Positions 40,794 through 46,496 of a stretch of 54,103 nt of DNA are shown here, piece by piece (position 1 is the stretch's first letter; every line of letters starts with the position of its first letter). Under the pieces are notes generated by a model, which was not told where the DNA came from, did no database searches, and was given only the letters and a program-made list of their open reading frames with translations. The stretch covers positions 1-54,103 of the forward strand of contig MWCM01000008.1 in assembly GCA_002070055.1 (NCBI GenBank). Reading direction: 5' to 3'. The translations under genes and the position numbers were made by a program. This DNA is from a bacterium ADurb.Bin212. GTDB lineage: Bacteria > Patescibacteriota > UBA1384 > XYA2-FULL-43-10.

Positions 40794-42170
40794 TTAAGCA
40801 ATCTTCTGATTAATGTAATCTTTGAGCTCTTTTGAACTTATTCTAATTTGTTCAAGTGAATCCCTGTCCCTGATTGTAACAGTGTCATTTTCTAGTGTGT
40901 CAAAATCTACAGTAATACAAAACGGCGTTCCGATTTCGTCCTGTCTTCGATATCTCTTACCAATATTACCATTATCATCAAATTCACAAACAAAAGATGT
41001 TTTAAGATTGTCAAAAACTTGTTTTGCCACGCTAACAAGCTCGGGTTTATTCTTTAATAGCGGGAAAATTGCCGCCTTAACCGGGGCAACTTTTGGAGGG
41101 AATTTCAACACAACTCTTTGCTCACCGTTAACCTCCTCTTCGCAATATGCGCTATCTAAAGCAACCAGAATGCTGCGATCCAATCCAAAAGTCGGTTCCA
41201 AAACATGTGGTATATACCTCTGGTTAGTTGCCTCATCAAAATACTCAAGCTTCTCCCCGCTCTTCTCTGAATGAACTTTCAAATCAAAATCACTGCGGTG
41301 AGCCAGGCCATAGAGTTCCTTAAAGCCAAAAGGATATTCATACTCAATATCAACAGTTTTTTTAGAATAATGTGATAACTTCTCCTTGGGATGTTCATAT
41401 CTTCTAAGTTTATCTTTCTTTGCACCAAGCTCCATAGCAAACTCCTCCTGAAGTACTAGCCAATCTTCAAACATGCTTTGCCAATCACAATCAGGAGCAA
41501 TAAAGTTCTCGATTTCCATCTGCTCAAATTCTCGAAGCCTGAAGATAAAATTCCCAGCCACAATTTCATTTCTGAAAGCTTTGCCGATTTGTGCCACTCC
41601 AAAAGGAATCTTTTGGCGCGTAGAGTCTAAGATATTTTTAAATTCGATAAAGATAGCACCAGCAGTTTCCGGCCGCAAATATGCTACCGCTTCGTCACAT
41701 ACACCGGTGGTATTCATGCTGGTCTTAAACATCATATTAAAGTTTTTAACATCGCTCCAATTCCTTTTGCCGCAATTTGGACAATTAACCTTTTCGTCCA
41801 ACAACTGTTTCATTTGCTCTAGTTTACCCTCTAAATCCTGCCCTGTAGCATCTTCGACAATATTGTCAGCCCTGAATCTGCTTTTGCACTCCTTACAATC
41901 CACCATAGCATCGTTAAAACTGGTGGTGTGACCACTGGCTTCCCATAGTTTTGGGTGAAGAATAATGGGACCGTCGATACCAACAATATCCGATCGGTTG
42001 TTTACAAATTTTTTCCACCATAAATCTTTGATATTCTTTTTTAACTCTGAACCATAAGGACCGTAGTTATAAGAGTTGGCAAAACCGCCATATATCTCTG
42101 AAGCGCTATTTACGAAGCCTCTCCTCTTACAGAGAGATACAATTTTTTCCATCCTGTCTTGAGCTGCCAT
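40794..42170 (-). CDS. glyS: Glycyl-tRNA synthetase (homodimeric class II type)
   Basis: 458 aa. The alpha2-type enzyme: start DRMEKIVSLCKRRGFVNSASEIYGG, motif 1 region NYGPYGSELKKNIKDLWWKKFV, zinc-binding-like pairs (CKECKSRF, CPNCGKRNW), motif 2 FRNEIVAGNFIFRLREFEQMEIENF, motif 3 EPTFGLDRSILVALDSAY. A C-terminal anticodon-binding domain ends the protein. In many bacteria recO precedes glyS; here a GC-rich gene pair separates them. Confidence 0.96.
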   Translation of the reverse strand: MAAQDRMEKIVSLCKRRGFVNSASEIYGGFANSYNYGPYGSELKKNIKDLWWKKFVNNRSDIVGIDGPIILHPKLWEASGHTTSFNDAMVDCKECKSRFRADNIVEDATGQDLEGKLEQMKQLLDEKVNCPNCGKRNWSDVKNFNMMFKTSMNTTGVCDEAVAYLRPETAGAIFIEFKNILDSTRQKIPFGVAQIGKAFRNEIVAGNFIFRLREFEQMEIENFIAPDCDWQSMFEDWLVLQEEFAMELGAKKDKLRRYEHPKEKLSHYSKKTVDIEYEYPFGFKELYGLAHRSDFDLKVHSEKSGEKLEYFDEATNQRYIPHVLEPTFGLDRSILVALDSAYCEEEVNGEQRVVLKFPPKVAPVKAAIFPLLKNKPELVSVAKQVFDNLKTSFVCEFDDNGNIGKRYRRQDEIGTPFCITVDFDTLENDTVTIRDRDSLEQIRISSKELKDYINQKIA

Positions 42171-42237: not shown

Positions 42238-42265
42238 GGTGCCCCGACATCGTTATCGGGGCACC
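42238..42265 (-). terminator. Terminator of the GC-rich 53-aa gene
   Basis: GGTGCCCCGA (42238-42247) and TCGGGGCACC (42256-42265) form a perfect 10-bp stem with an 8-nt loop, 16 nt past the stop codon on the minus strand. The tract after it is T-rich but interrupted. Confidence 0.6.
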
Positions 42266-42281
42266 ACGGCTCGAACCGTCG

Positions 42282-42443
42282 TCAGCGCAGACGTTTTTCG
42301 ACCTTTGCCATGACCAGGTTGTAGTTAGCAAGGGCCTTTAGGCAGTAGTTATGCCGGCGCAGTGCAGCAAGTGCTTGCCGTTCGGCGCTTTGCGCTCTTT
42401 CTATCTTGCCACTGTTGCGAGATTCTACCTTCTGTTGAGTCAC
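42282..42443 (-). CDS. GC-rich orphan small protein (53 aa)
   Basis: GTG start at 42443 with GGGAGG about 9 nt ahead. The product MTQQKVESRNSGKIERAQ... is basic and helical (SAERQALAALRRHNY, NLVMAKVEKRLR) with a single Cys. No family recognised. Codon use is GC-rich (CTG, CGC, GCC) in contrast to flanking glyS. It has its own promoter (-35 TTGACG 42685-42690, -10 TAATAT 42662-42667), a long leader with an intrinsic terminator, and its own downstream terminator. It is divergent from the 284-aa GC-rich gene. Size and lack of homologues make it less certain than neighbours, but the signals are complete. Confidence 0.6.
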   Translation of the reverse strand: MTQQKVESRNSGKIERAQSAERQALAALRRHNYCLKALANYNLVMAKVEKRLR

Positions 42444-42503
42444 GGTTCTTCCTCCCTTGTTTTTGTTCCGGGATGACGAAAATTCACCAACCCAGGCAAA
42501 AAC

Positions 42504-42568
42504 AAAAAAGCCGCCGGTAGATTTGGCGGTTTTAATGTTTGATTAAATCAAAAAGCTACACTAAAACC
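42504..42568 (-). promoter_or_regulatory. Attenuator-like leader of the 53-aa gene
   Basis: On the minus strand an intrinsic terminator, stem 42510-42515 (RNA GGCGGC) with 42525-42530 (RNA ACCGCC), is followed by a T6 run, about 60 nt before the GTG. Just upstream RNA GGTTTTAGTG (42559-42568) can pair over 10 positions with CATTAAAACC (42528-42537), which shares three bases with the terminator's 5' strand. A nested palindrome TTTGATTTAATCAAA (42538-42552) supports the alternative hairpin. Confidence 0.5.
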
Positions 42569-42661
42569 AGCCACTTACCCACGACCACGCCACAAACTAG
42601 AGCATCTGCTTGCATCAAGTTATTTTCGGCTATATTTTGTGACAAATATTCCATTTGTATT

Positions 42662-42721
42662 ATATTATCAACCAGCGCTTCCTGCGTCAACCTTGACAGA
42701 AAATGACATATATGTTATGGA
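42662..42721. promoter_or_regulatory. Back-to-back divergent promoters of the GC-rich pair
   Basis: Minus strand: TTGACG (42685-42690), 17-nt spacer, TAATAT (42662-42667). Plus strand: TTGACA (42693-42698), 17-nt spacer, TATGGA (42716-42721). The two -35 boxes are only 2 nt apart. The remaining intergenic DNA (42569-42661) holds the upstream part of the minus-strand leader and no gene. Confidence 0.6.
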
Positions 42722-42766
42722 TTAGGTGGCTGCATACACCAAGGAACCTGTGTCAGAGGTGAGATC

Positions 42767-43621
42767 ATGAGAGTCAGCGAATACCTAGTAAGCGACGAAC
42801 ACCGAGATCTGATTGAGTCGCTGGGGTTGCCCAACCCGTTGGACAACACTCAGCGCTTCGTCCTGGCCACATACCAGCTGGACGATCGGTATGTGCTCAG
42901 GGAAGGAGAAGAACCGCTAGTACGCTGGCGTCTTGAGGGTATCGTGCCCTCAGGCATCACGCCTGAGCAACACGACGCGATCAACAAGGTCGCCACCCGA
43001 CTCGGCATGAACCACGGCTCCAAAAGTCCATTCGGTGCCTATGCCGGCATGGCTTTCCTTGGTGCCGCACGTATGGCGCCGCGCGACCGTCTGGAGCACC
43101 TGCTCAAGGCTCTCCGAAGTGGCCACGCCACCACTGATTGGCTTGGCGGCGTTGGCTCCGGCCGCGTCTTGAGCGATGAGGAGCAGAAGATCGTCGAGAG
43201 CTATGCCAAGGGGGCCAAGATCGAGTCCGACTTGATTCAGGCGGCCTGGAACGACCTCCGAGGCGAGTATGGGGATGTGGCCGGAACTGTTAACATCCTG
43301 CGCGTCGAGAGCCAAAGCGCCCGCAACATGGATGTGATGCGCTTGGTCATGGAGACCATGCGCCAGGAGCACCTGCTGCATGACGAAGCGGTGGTCACAT
43401 TCTCCACCAACAGGATATACGAGGCGTTCACCACCGTGGACGCAGCGATCCTGAACCTCGACTACCCCGGCGTCCTGATTGAAGTCGTCAGTTGCCCGGC
43501 CAGCGAAGTTGCGTTGAAGGCCCGGAACGATGGGACATACCGGAGTGAGATCATGCGCACATACCGCGCGATGATCCAGGCCTTGGAGCTCGGGCTCGAC
43601 CCCGAGCTCCCCGCCGCTTAG
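42767..43621 (+). CDS. GC-rich orphan gene, unknown function (284 aa)
   Basis: ATG at 42767 behind AGAGGTGA. A soluble, mixed alpha/beta protein without signal peptide, membrane helices or cysteine-rich motifs. Visible phrases are VLATYQLDDRYVLREGEEPLVRWRLEGIVP, NHGSKSPFGAYAGMAFLGAARMAPRDRLEHLLKALRSGHATTDW and AWNDLRGEYGDVAGTVNILRVESQSARNM. I recognise no family. Codons end mostly in G or C, with a base composition far above that of glyS and recO, so transfer from a GC-rich source is likely. It has its own promoter and a strong terminator at 43663. An antisense frame of 227 codons is a by-product of the GC-rich third positions. Confidence 0.8.
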   Translation: MRVSEYLVSDEHRDLIESLGLPNPLDNTQRFVLATYQLDDRYVLREGEEPLVRWRLEGIVPSGITPEQHDAINKVATRLGMNHGSKSPFGAYAGMAFLGAARMAPRDRLEHLLKALRSGHATTDWLGGVGSGRVLSDEEQKIVESYAKGAKIESDLIQAAWNDLRGEYGDVAGTVNILRVESQSARNMDVMRLVMETMRQEHLLHDEAVVTFSTNRIYEAFTTVDAAILNLDYPGVLIEVVSCPASEVALKARNDGTYRSEIMRTYRAMIQALELGLDPELPAA

Positions 43622-43662
43622 CTGTTGCGGCACTACCCCCCAACAACCACACAGCTGTACCG

Positions 43663-43695
43663 AACGAGGCGACCCCGCATGGGGCCGCCTCGTTT
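43663..43695 (+). terminator. Terminator of the 284-aa gene
   Basis: AACGAGGCG-A-CCCC (43663-43676), loop GCAT, GGGG-C-CGCCTCGTT(T) (43681-43695). Thirteen base pairs with one mismatch. It is also positioned to stop minus-strand transcription from recO. Confidence 0.8.
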
Positions 43696-43715: not shown

Positions 43716-44441
43716 TTACAAATATTTTCTACTCTTAAGCTCTTTTTCTAGAGCATTTTGCAGATATTTCTCGAGTATCCCCTCGACTTCCTTGATGTGA
43801 CTAATATCACATTTGATTTTATCACAAACCCCGACACCGTTTTTCTGCAAAAGCCTTAGAAGTTTAATAACACCGTCCTCGATTTTAGTGGCGGCGCCGA
43901 AGTGTTCGCCACATCGTGCACAAAGTAAATGTCCGGAGATATTACTTATATAATTTTCACCTGATTTTAGGCTATTTTTACATGAGGAACACAGATATAA
44001 ATCCGGTTGAAAACCAGCTTGAGATAGTATTTGCAGCTCAAATAACCTAAGTGGCAAATTATTTTTGGTTCTATGTAATTGACTTAAAGCGCTTACAAAC
44101 AGTTCAAATGCATTAATATTTTTTTCTTCATCTTCAAACATCTTGTCAATAATTTCTGAAGCGTAAACTGCTTTTGTTGAACCGGACAACATGCCGTTAC
44201 AATTATAACTGGAAATCAGCTCAACTCCGGTAACAATATAAAACGATTTTCCTTCGTGTAGTTCCAGTTGTATTAGATTGTATGGCTCCAGACTGCCTGC
44301 CATTCTTGAGGGTATTTTACGCACACCTTTGGCAATTGCTTTTATCTTCCCAAGATTATCAGTAAAAATGGTCAGAATTTTATCTGCCTCGTTAAAGTTC
44401 AAACGCTTTATTACCACGCCTCTTGTTTTAATTCTACGCAT
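43716..44441 (-). CDS. recO: DNA repair protein RecO
   Basis: 241 aa. Recombination mediator that loads RecA onto SSB-coated DNA. The N-terminal OB fold reads RRIKTRGVVIKRLNFNEADKILTIFTDNLGKIKAIAKGVRK; a helical domain and a zinc finger (CSSC...CARC, about residues 153-180) follow. The length is typical. It is separated from glyS, its usual neighbour, by the GC-rich pair. Confidence 0.95.
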   Translation of the reverse strand: MRRIKTRGVVIKRLNFNEADKILTIFTDNLGKIKAIAKGVRKIPSRMAGSLEPYNLIQLELHEGKSFYIVTGVELISSYNCNGMLSGSTKAVYASEIIDKMFEDEEKNINAFELFVSALSQLHRTKNNLPLRLFELQILSQAGFQPDLYLCSSCKNSLKSGENYISNISGHLLCARCGEHFGAATKIEDGVIKLLRLLQKNGVGVCDKIKCDISHIKEVEGILEKYLQNALEKELKSRKYL

Positions 44442-46032: not shown

Positions 46033-46060
46033 AGTCCGCGCCTATGCTTTGGCGCGGACT
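46033..46060 (-). terminator. Terminator overlapping the end of the GC-rich 115-aa gene
   Basis: AGTCCGCGCC (46033-46042) and GGCGCGGACT (46051-46060) form a perfect 10-bp stem with an 8-nt loop; a T-rich tract follows on the minus strand. The stem includes the last codons and the stop of the gene. Confidence 0.85.
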
Positions 46061-46389
46061 TGCGGCTTCCTCCTCGTCTCGGACCAACGCCCGCGGTTGC
46101 CTCCCTTGGGGGTGCGGGAGGCGTAGACGGAAGTTCTCTTGCAGGCGCTGGTGAGTGCCTGCTTAGTGGCCAAAGCCACTTGACGGAGAGAGGTTAACTC
46201 CGCCGTTCCACGATACTCGACGCCAGCGGCGGAAAATGAAACCCCTATCATTGTCCGACCTTTGTTGCGCCGGCTGGGAGCTGGCCACTCCTCGACCTTG
46301 AGACAAGACGGGTGAAACCACATCTTGCCGTCAGAGGGCGACAAGGCGTCTTCACCCACCGGCTTCTGGCAAACAAAACACTCGGGCAT
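46042..46389 (-). CDS. GC-rich orphan gene with LIM/treble-clef-like zinc finger (115 aa)
   Basis: 115 aa from the ATG at 46389 behind AAAGGGG; an in-frame farther start (46443) would run into the leader terminator and is rejected. The N terminus has CFVCQKPVGEDALSPSDGKMWFHPSC, a Cx2C...HxxC arrangement like treble-clef or LIM half-fingers. The rest is basic, rich in Arg/Lys/Ser (PSRRNKGRTMIG, RTPKGGNRGRWSETRRKPQVRAKA), which suggests nucleic-acid binding. Codon use is GC-rich against AT-rich neighbours. It has a separate promoter, a leader with terminator and antiterminator, and its own terminator. Function unknown. Confidence 0.75.
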   Translation of the reverse strand: MPECFVCQKPVGEDALSPSDGKMWFHPSCLKVEEWPAPSRRNKGRTMIGVSFSAAGVEYRGTAELTSLRQVALATKQALTSACKRTSVYASRTPKGGNRGRWSETRRKPQVRAKA

Positions 46390-46440
46390 ATTGACACCCC
46401 TTTCGTGCTGTATTGAAAAGCTATTGCCCTTCAAGCAGAA

Positions 46441-46496
46441 CAAAAAAACCGCCTTTTGGCGGCTGATTTCATTAAAAATTTGAAAAAATCAACCGC
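46441..46496 (-). promoter_or_regulatory. Terminator/antiterminator leader of the 115-aa gene
   Basis: Minus-strand RNA GCCGCC-AAAA-GGCGGT (46448-46463) followed by a T7 run (46442-46448) is an intrinsic terminator about 55 nt before the start codon. Upstream GCGGTTGATTT (46486-46496) can pair over 11 positions with AAATCAGCCGC (46459-46469), which contains the 5' strand of the terminator. The two structures exclude each other, as in riboswitch or attenuator leaders. Confidence 0.65.

Follow-up and report, generated by a model that had tools for sequence, protein, structure and literature searches.

The window, by which we mean the whole stretch of DNA analysed (54,103 nucleotides), is contig C8 of a Patescibacteria genome (G000; 1.22 Mb in 74 contigs, 40% GC), relatives of which within its order have been deposited under the name Candidatus Berkelbacteria. 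Between recO and glyS, which Pfam confirmed as the neighbours, lie two ORFs of 284 and 53 amino acids, at the place given in the original prediction (Table 1). Sliding-window analysis bore out the proposed compositional contrast, with a maximum of 61% GC at 43001-43500 and values of 35-42% over most of the window. The 284-aa ORF has a GC content of 0.61 and a GC3 of 0.76, against a GC3 of 0.32 for recO and 0.38 for glyS. G/C-ending codons had been ascribed to both ORFs, and this holds for the larger one but not for the 53-aa ORF, which, with a GC3 of only 0.55, is not strongly GC-ending. Each ORF is followed by a terminator hairpin of its own, as had been proposed, with a folding energy of −26.6 kcal/mol (z −4.9) for the 284-aa gene and −29.1 kcal/mol (z −6.2) after the 53-aa ORF; the T-tails of both are short. 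The back-to-back promoters were likewise found, their −35 boxes separated by 2 nt, although the one on the plus strand has a poor −10 element and did not appear in the output of a consensus scan.

Table 1. Features of the recO-glyS spacer, its flanks and a second GC-rich unit, in window positions
Feature	Position	Strand	Details
glyS (glycyl-tRNA synthetase), slot flank	40794..42170	−	Pfam PF00587/PF03129
Hairpin terminator 3′ of 53-aa ORF	42238..42265	−	
53-aa ORF	42282..42443	−	GTG start; Shine-Dalgarno GGGAGG; coding status uncertain
Intrinsic terminator between divergent promoter and 53-aa ORF	42507..42533	−	T-rich tail; leader or attenuator
Divergent promoter arm facing 53-aa ORF and glyS	42662..42690	−	−35 TTGACG (42690-42685), 17 nt, TAATAT; TG ahead of −10
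Promoter of 284-aa gene	42693..42721	+	−35 TTGACA (42693-42698), 17 nt, weak −10 TATGGA
284-aa GC-rich ORF	42767..43621	+	ATG start; Shine-Dalgarno AGAGGTGAGATC; predicted YdcF/DUF218-like fold
Terminator hairpin of 284-aa gene	43663..43694	+	14-nt arms, 93% complementary; abuts recO 3′ end
recO, slot flank	43716..44441	−	Pfam PF11967/PF02565
133-aa ORF, second GC-rich single-gene unit	46042..46443	−	weak PHD/zinc-finger-like N-terminus

The two ORFs had been tentatively read as a pair. An intrinsic terminator that the original prediction did not include lies between the minus-strand promoter and the 53-aa ORF, and the two ORFs are, therefore, not simply a divergently transcribed pair; this terminator would halt most transcripts ahead of the 53-aa ORF. 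Moreover, no relative of the 53-aa ORF was found in any of the 54 other genomes of the class (it is present in one genome of 55), and the other slots described below carry a single gene of this kind, which speaks against a pair. The 53-aa ORF, found in G000 alone among these genomes, lies behind the terminator and is intermediate in composition. The best reading of it is a small, later insertion on the glyS side, distinct from the 284-aa gene and not its partner; it is possibly non-coding. The minus-strand leader within 42500-42660 folds unusually well (−44.8 kcal/mol, z −3.4, for 42500-42640) and ends in the terminator, which makes it a possible candidate for an attenuator or a small RNA. A search with Rfam gave no leader or riboswitch near the two ORFs above threshold or chance.

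Homologues of the 284-aa protein were found in three of the 55 class genomes searched, G047 (30% identity), G051 (28%) and G052 (31%), all belonging to the same order. Their genes are GC-rich as well (GC 0.58-0.62, GC3 0.69-0.77), the median ORF GC of their genomes being about 0.43-0.45. In G047 and G051 the homologue sits between glyS and recO, antiparallel to both, as in G000, and in G052 it lies outside the recO-glyS slot. Strain variants of one such unit, with 95% identity across 394 nt, stand at the ends of two G052 contigs, C29 (L007 end) and C20 (L043 start). When 380 genomes of the phylum were searched with a profile, a more distant member emerged, a 319-aa protein of G131 encoded in a region of about 38% GC. 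A weak match to a larger, 693-aa protein of G302 (L025:967-3048) with a Peptidase_M15 domain (E 2e-6) was not accepted as a family member; in this protein, a weakly similar N-terminal region is fused to the D-Ala-D-Ala peptidase domain. Pattern scans with the single 284-aa protein found nothing in genomes or viral contigs, and scans with the family alignment returned only the three relatives already known and no viral match. A tblastn search against phages and plasmids was also without a match. Overall, neither the plasmids, phages and viral contigs searched nor the named genomes from beyond the order yielded a close relative.

A DUF218-like D-x-V-I-x-L-G-G motif was noticed in the family alignment before the fold searches. 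The AlphaFold2 model of the 284-aa protein, made from a four-sequence input, is a confident one, with a pLDDT of 87.7 and a pTM of 0.87 (the pLDDT of the G051 member is 90.3). Among the viral protein models of BFVD, its top match belongs to the YdcF family (E 8e-4, probability 1.00, TM by target 0.62), and DUF218 proteins take ranks 10 and 26. Matches in the PDB were weak (TM about 0.3), none being confident, and YdcF was absent among the 50 matches listed. HHalign aligned the family with Patescibacteria DUF218 proteins such that the first motif, the one expected, coincided (P 0.0024), but with a probability of only 12%. For this soluble protein, which belongs to a family of Patescibacteria, the models predict an alpha/beta fold like that of YdcF/DUF218. 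With YdcF/DUF218 proteins (PF02698; E. coli YdcF, SanA and ElyC) the family would have in common this fold and a GG/R motif past the first sheet strand, as well as solubility in the case of the cytoplasmic YdcF. Unlike them, it has an extra N-terminal helical region; the PF02698 profile matched none of five family members, and a genome-wide DUF218 scan listed other loci and not the 284-aa gene. Nor does the family keep the full Thr/His/Glu triad that has been reported for DUF218 (PMC12176290): the residues invariant among four family members include T214, E153 and E261 but no histidine. The protein looks like a DUF218 protein, but given the lack of a PF02698 match and of an invariant histidine it is only a candidate member. 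YdcF is reported to bind S-adenosylmethionine, and its fold resembles that of adenine nucleotide alpha-hydrolases (PMC12176290, PMC3879167); by analogy, the 284-aa protein may be cytoplasmic and bind a ligand similar to a nucleotide or to SAM.

One hypothesis for the origin of the locus, which builds on the self-contained acquired module suggested originally, is a two-gene module of a toxin-antitoxin or defence type that came recently from a GC-rich donor. The composition and the separate promoters and terminators are in keeping with this, and the 284-aa gene does form a self-contained transcription unit. However, the 53-aa ORF is not conserved, and neither ORF has a significant match in PADLOC, NCBIfam, Pfam or PHROGs, so that profile searches assigned no family, defence and toxin-antitoxin families included; the structure prediction points instead to a YdcF-like fold. 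A recent date is not supported either. Homologues that are 25-40% identical, in other families, keep the site, the orientation and the high GC, and relatives are missing from the plasmids, phages and viral contigs searched. That the divergent homologues are GC-rich, and that two of them occupy the same site in the same orientation, makes a single recent acquisition unlikely. With so much divergence a foreign signature would be expected to fade, and recent acquisition is, therefore, not the simplest reading. We regard the two-gene module as very improbable.

Comparison of nine recO-glyS junctions, all from fragmented genome assemblies, showed that a GC-rich ORF is present at seven of them, in each case antiparallel to recO and glyS. 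It is the YdcF-like gene in G000, G047 and G051, and genes of 237 aa in G001, 127 aa in G046, 72 aa in G050 (where it adjoins an IS-type transposase gene) and 70 aa in G052. The two junctions without a GC-rich gene measure 99 bp (G048) and 308 bp (G054). In the congeners G046 and G047 the flanks of the slot align at 78-80% nucleotide identity, and the 0.7 and 1.1 kb between the flanks do not align. In sister genomes the site is almost empty or occupied by GC-rich genes of no relation to one another, in keeping with a variable site, and the pair is not carried by all of them with matching composition. A relative of the 237-aa slot gene of G001 is found at another location in G051 with about 49% GC, which indicates that high GC is not strictly kept.

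Other genes were seen at these junctions or beside recO. In G050 (L059), a 285-aa IS-type transposase gene with TTTTCGGATTCACAG-type ends and an apparent CTAG duplication lies between the promoter of the accessory gene and glyS. A PaaX/Cas2-like gene adjoins recO in G047 (L002:2395-3150) and also in G046, flanked by copies of a palindromic repeat of about 44 nt of the AACATCAATAAAATCAAACGATCGTTTGATTTTATTGATGTT type, and a PaaX-type ORF is present within the G001 junction as well.

The arrangement of the minus-strand promoter arm recurs at the glyS promoter in G001, G046, G047, G051 and G052. Of the six genomes, four have a gap of 2 nt between the divergent −35 boxes, by reading, and the other two have gaps of 3 and 4 nt. 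Because the consensus scan is too insensitive for back-to-back promoters, similarity between genomes was measured as a direct alignment score against 1000 shuffles. The divergent promoters at the slot of G000 and G001 gave a score of 50 (shuffles: mean 20, maximum 41; none of 1000 reached 50), those of G046 and G047 a score of 55 (shuffle maximum 43; again none of 1000), and those of G051 and G052 a score of 38, which was reached by two of 1000 shuffles. Within each of these pairs the accessory ORFs are unrelated by profile and BLAST comparison. These results indicate that related genomes of a pair keep the promoter and differ in the body: content varies at a fixed site and in a fixed orientation. 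Across families, promoter similarity by the same measure was mostly weak, non-significant or absent, and the comparison does not, therefore, show that one promoter was ancestral to the entire order.

The layout of the 284-aa gene is not unique, there being a second such unit in the window, with a good promoter (46583-46555) and a strong terminator (46061-46032) of its own, and dozens elsewhere in the genome. A survey of 827 kb of G000 picked out 37 ORFs that have a Shine-Dalgarno sequence and exceed the median GC by 0.12; the Shine-Dalgarno sequence was a selection criterion and hence is not evidence by itself. A strong hairpin lies 3′ of 59% of 68 GC-rich ORFs from seven genomes of the order, compared with 1% when the same DNA is shuffled and 7% for ordinary genes. 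The GC content rises from 0.39 at 100-200 nt upstream to 0.57 within the ORF, is still 0.54 over the first 60 nt beyond it and is back to 0.40 at 80-120 nt downstream, and this profile indicates that the shift in composition is confined to the transcription unit. Codon use and amino-acid composition are both shifted. Among 20 unit proteins tried, 12 had no Pfam match at E 0.01, and the remainder included a radical SAM protein, an amidase, an M23 peptidase, UbiA, HAD and thymidylate kinase-like proteins. Samples of 42-80 kb showed a GC-rich tail in several further genomes belonging to the order, though not in the parts of G049 and G054 read, and in two of four others from the class. Presence and absence were also seen at other junctions of the congeners, where units of G047 are missing from G046: one junction measures 0.57 kb in the former and 42 bp in the latter, and another 0.75 kb and 21 bp.

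At G047 L107:6232-8011, two tandem GC-rich units, by eye one lipoprotein-like and one phosphoglycerate-mutase-like, lie upstream of a phosphoglycerate-kinase-like gene, and the congener G046 has neither. At G047 L114:2330-2900 and G046 L141:3320-3900, one site with a similar promoter holds very different GC-rich ORFs, whose C-termini may be distantly related, as fast divergence or exchange would produce.

Given an observed protein family with its synteny, empty and exchanged sites, alike promoters in related pairs and a genome-wide class of GC-rich units, we consider it probable that the recO-glyS spacer is a variable accessory-gene slot with a fixed divergent promoter and an exchanged body, which at present holds a YdcF-like protein. 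According to this model, the divergent promoter would be kept, one arm serving glyS and the other the accessory gene, and the body behind the accessory arm, a GC-rich ORF with its own hairpin terminator, would be lost or exchanged between related lineages, the G000 unit being one of the dozens of monocistronic GC-rich units in its genome. Once DNA has been taken up, homologous recombination between the AT-rich flanks might exchange the bodies, or an integrase as yet unknown might do so. Their high GC might come from a GC-rich gene pool, from selection or from local GC-biased conversion in a recombining slot. Searches at the slot found no recombinase or attachment site, and no integrase or attC-type array nearby.

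Alternatively, the YdcF-like gene could be a fast-evolving orphan that was present in the slot of the order's ancestor and was inherited vertically, the unrelated genes elsewhere being later replacements, each of independent origin, or de novo ORFs and the GC being kept by selection or GC-biased gene conversion and not by import. Three families carry the YdcF-like gene at the same site and in the same orientation, and the unrooted tree of the family has the same split as the recO plus glyS tree for four genomes of the order. The protein also evolves faster than its neighbours (pairwise identity of 26-38%, against 39-46% for recO and 46-55% for glyS in the same pairs), and the two congeners share a further unit that is GC-rich in each, with 49% protein identity. 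Vertical descent alone, however, does not explain why, in three pairs of genomes, one promoter should drive unrelated GC-rich ORFs, nor the clean presence or absence at other junctions, and the amino-acid composition is shifted too. For these reasons we think it unlikely, though deserving of some weight.

Another scenario is that the units are phage-type "moron" genes or remnants of a known class of element, such as integron cassettes or IS-borne genes. A single gene with its own promoter and terminator and a foreign-looking composition would fit, as would the IS-type transposase gene at the G050 junction. On the other hand, the units lie at housekeeping-gene junctions, the YdcF-like family has no phage or viral match, and no common end or terminal repeat was seen, either in a repeat search of the locus or by inspection of the unit flanks and four compared junctions. 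We therefore judge this origin improbable.

If the slot reading is extended beyond this locus, one could envision that Patescibacteria carry undescribed interchangeable single-gene cassettes, in which a dedicated exchange process would set GC-rich bodies downstream of the AT-rich promoters already resident in fixed intergenic slots, the bodies staying GC-rich over order-level time; this extension is tentative, and we hold it to be rather doubtful. The literature searched contained no description of GC-rich cassettes in Patescibacteria. A 2025 study of genetic exchange in Patescibacteria describes many genomic islands and individually transferred genes (PMC12455944), and a search of its text by term gave neither cassettes nor intergenic hotspots. 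Our results suggest many single-gene expression slots, with a fixed promoter and a changing gene, in the small, reduced genomes of uncultured Patescibacteria. If this is true, then such slots would be a concrete and testable route by which these bacteria gain orphan genes. They also pose a puzzle of composition, namely transcription units near 60% GC in 40% GC genomes across order-level divergence.

Among known systems, genomic integration hotspots, which are flexible regions flanked by conserved genes, resemble the slot in having fixed core flanks and differing accessory genes in related genomes, some of them empty. They differ in that the slot, at which no integrase or tRNA target was seen, takes one gene at a time, in one orientation in seven of seven cases, and apparently keeps its promoter. 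Phage morons are single transcription units with their own promoter and terminator and an aberrant GC content; the slot units have the single-unit layout and the aberrant GC in common with them, but they reside in chromosomal housekeeping junctions, with no phage relatives found. Integron gene cassettes are, like the slot units, interchangeable single genes, whereas the slot units carry their own promoters and are scattered rather than arrayed.
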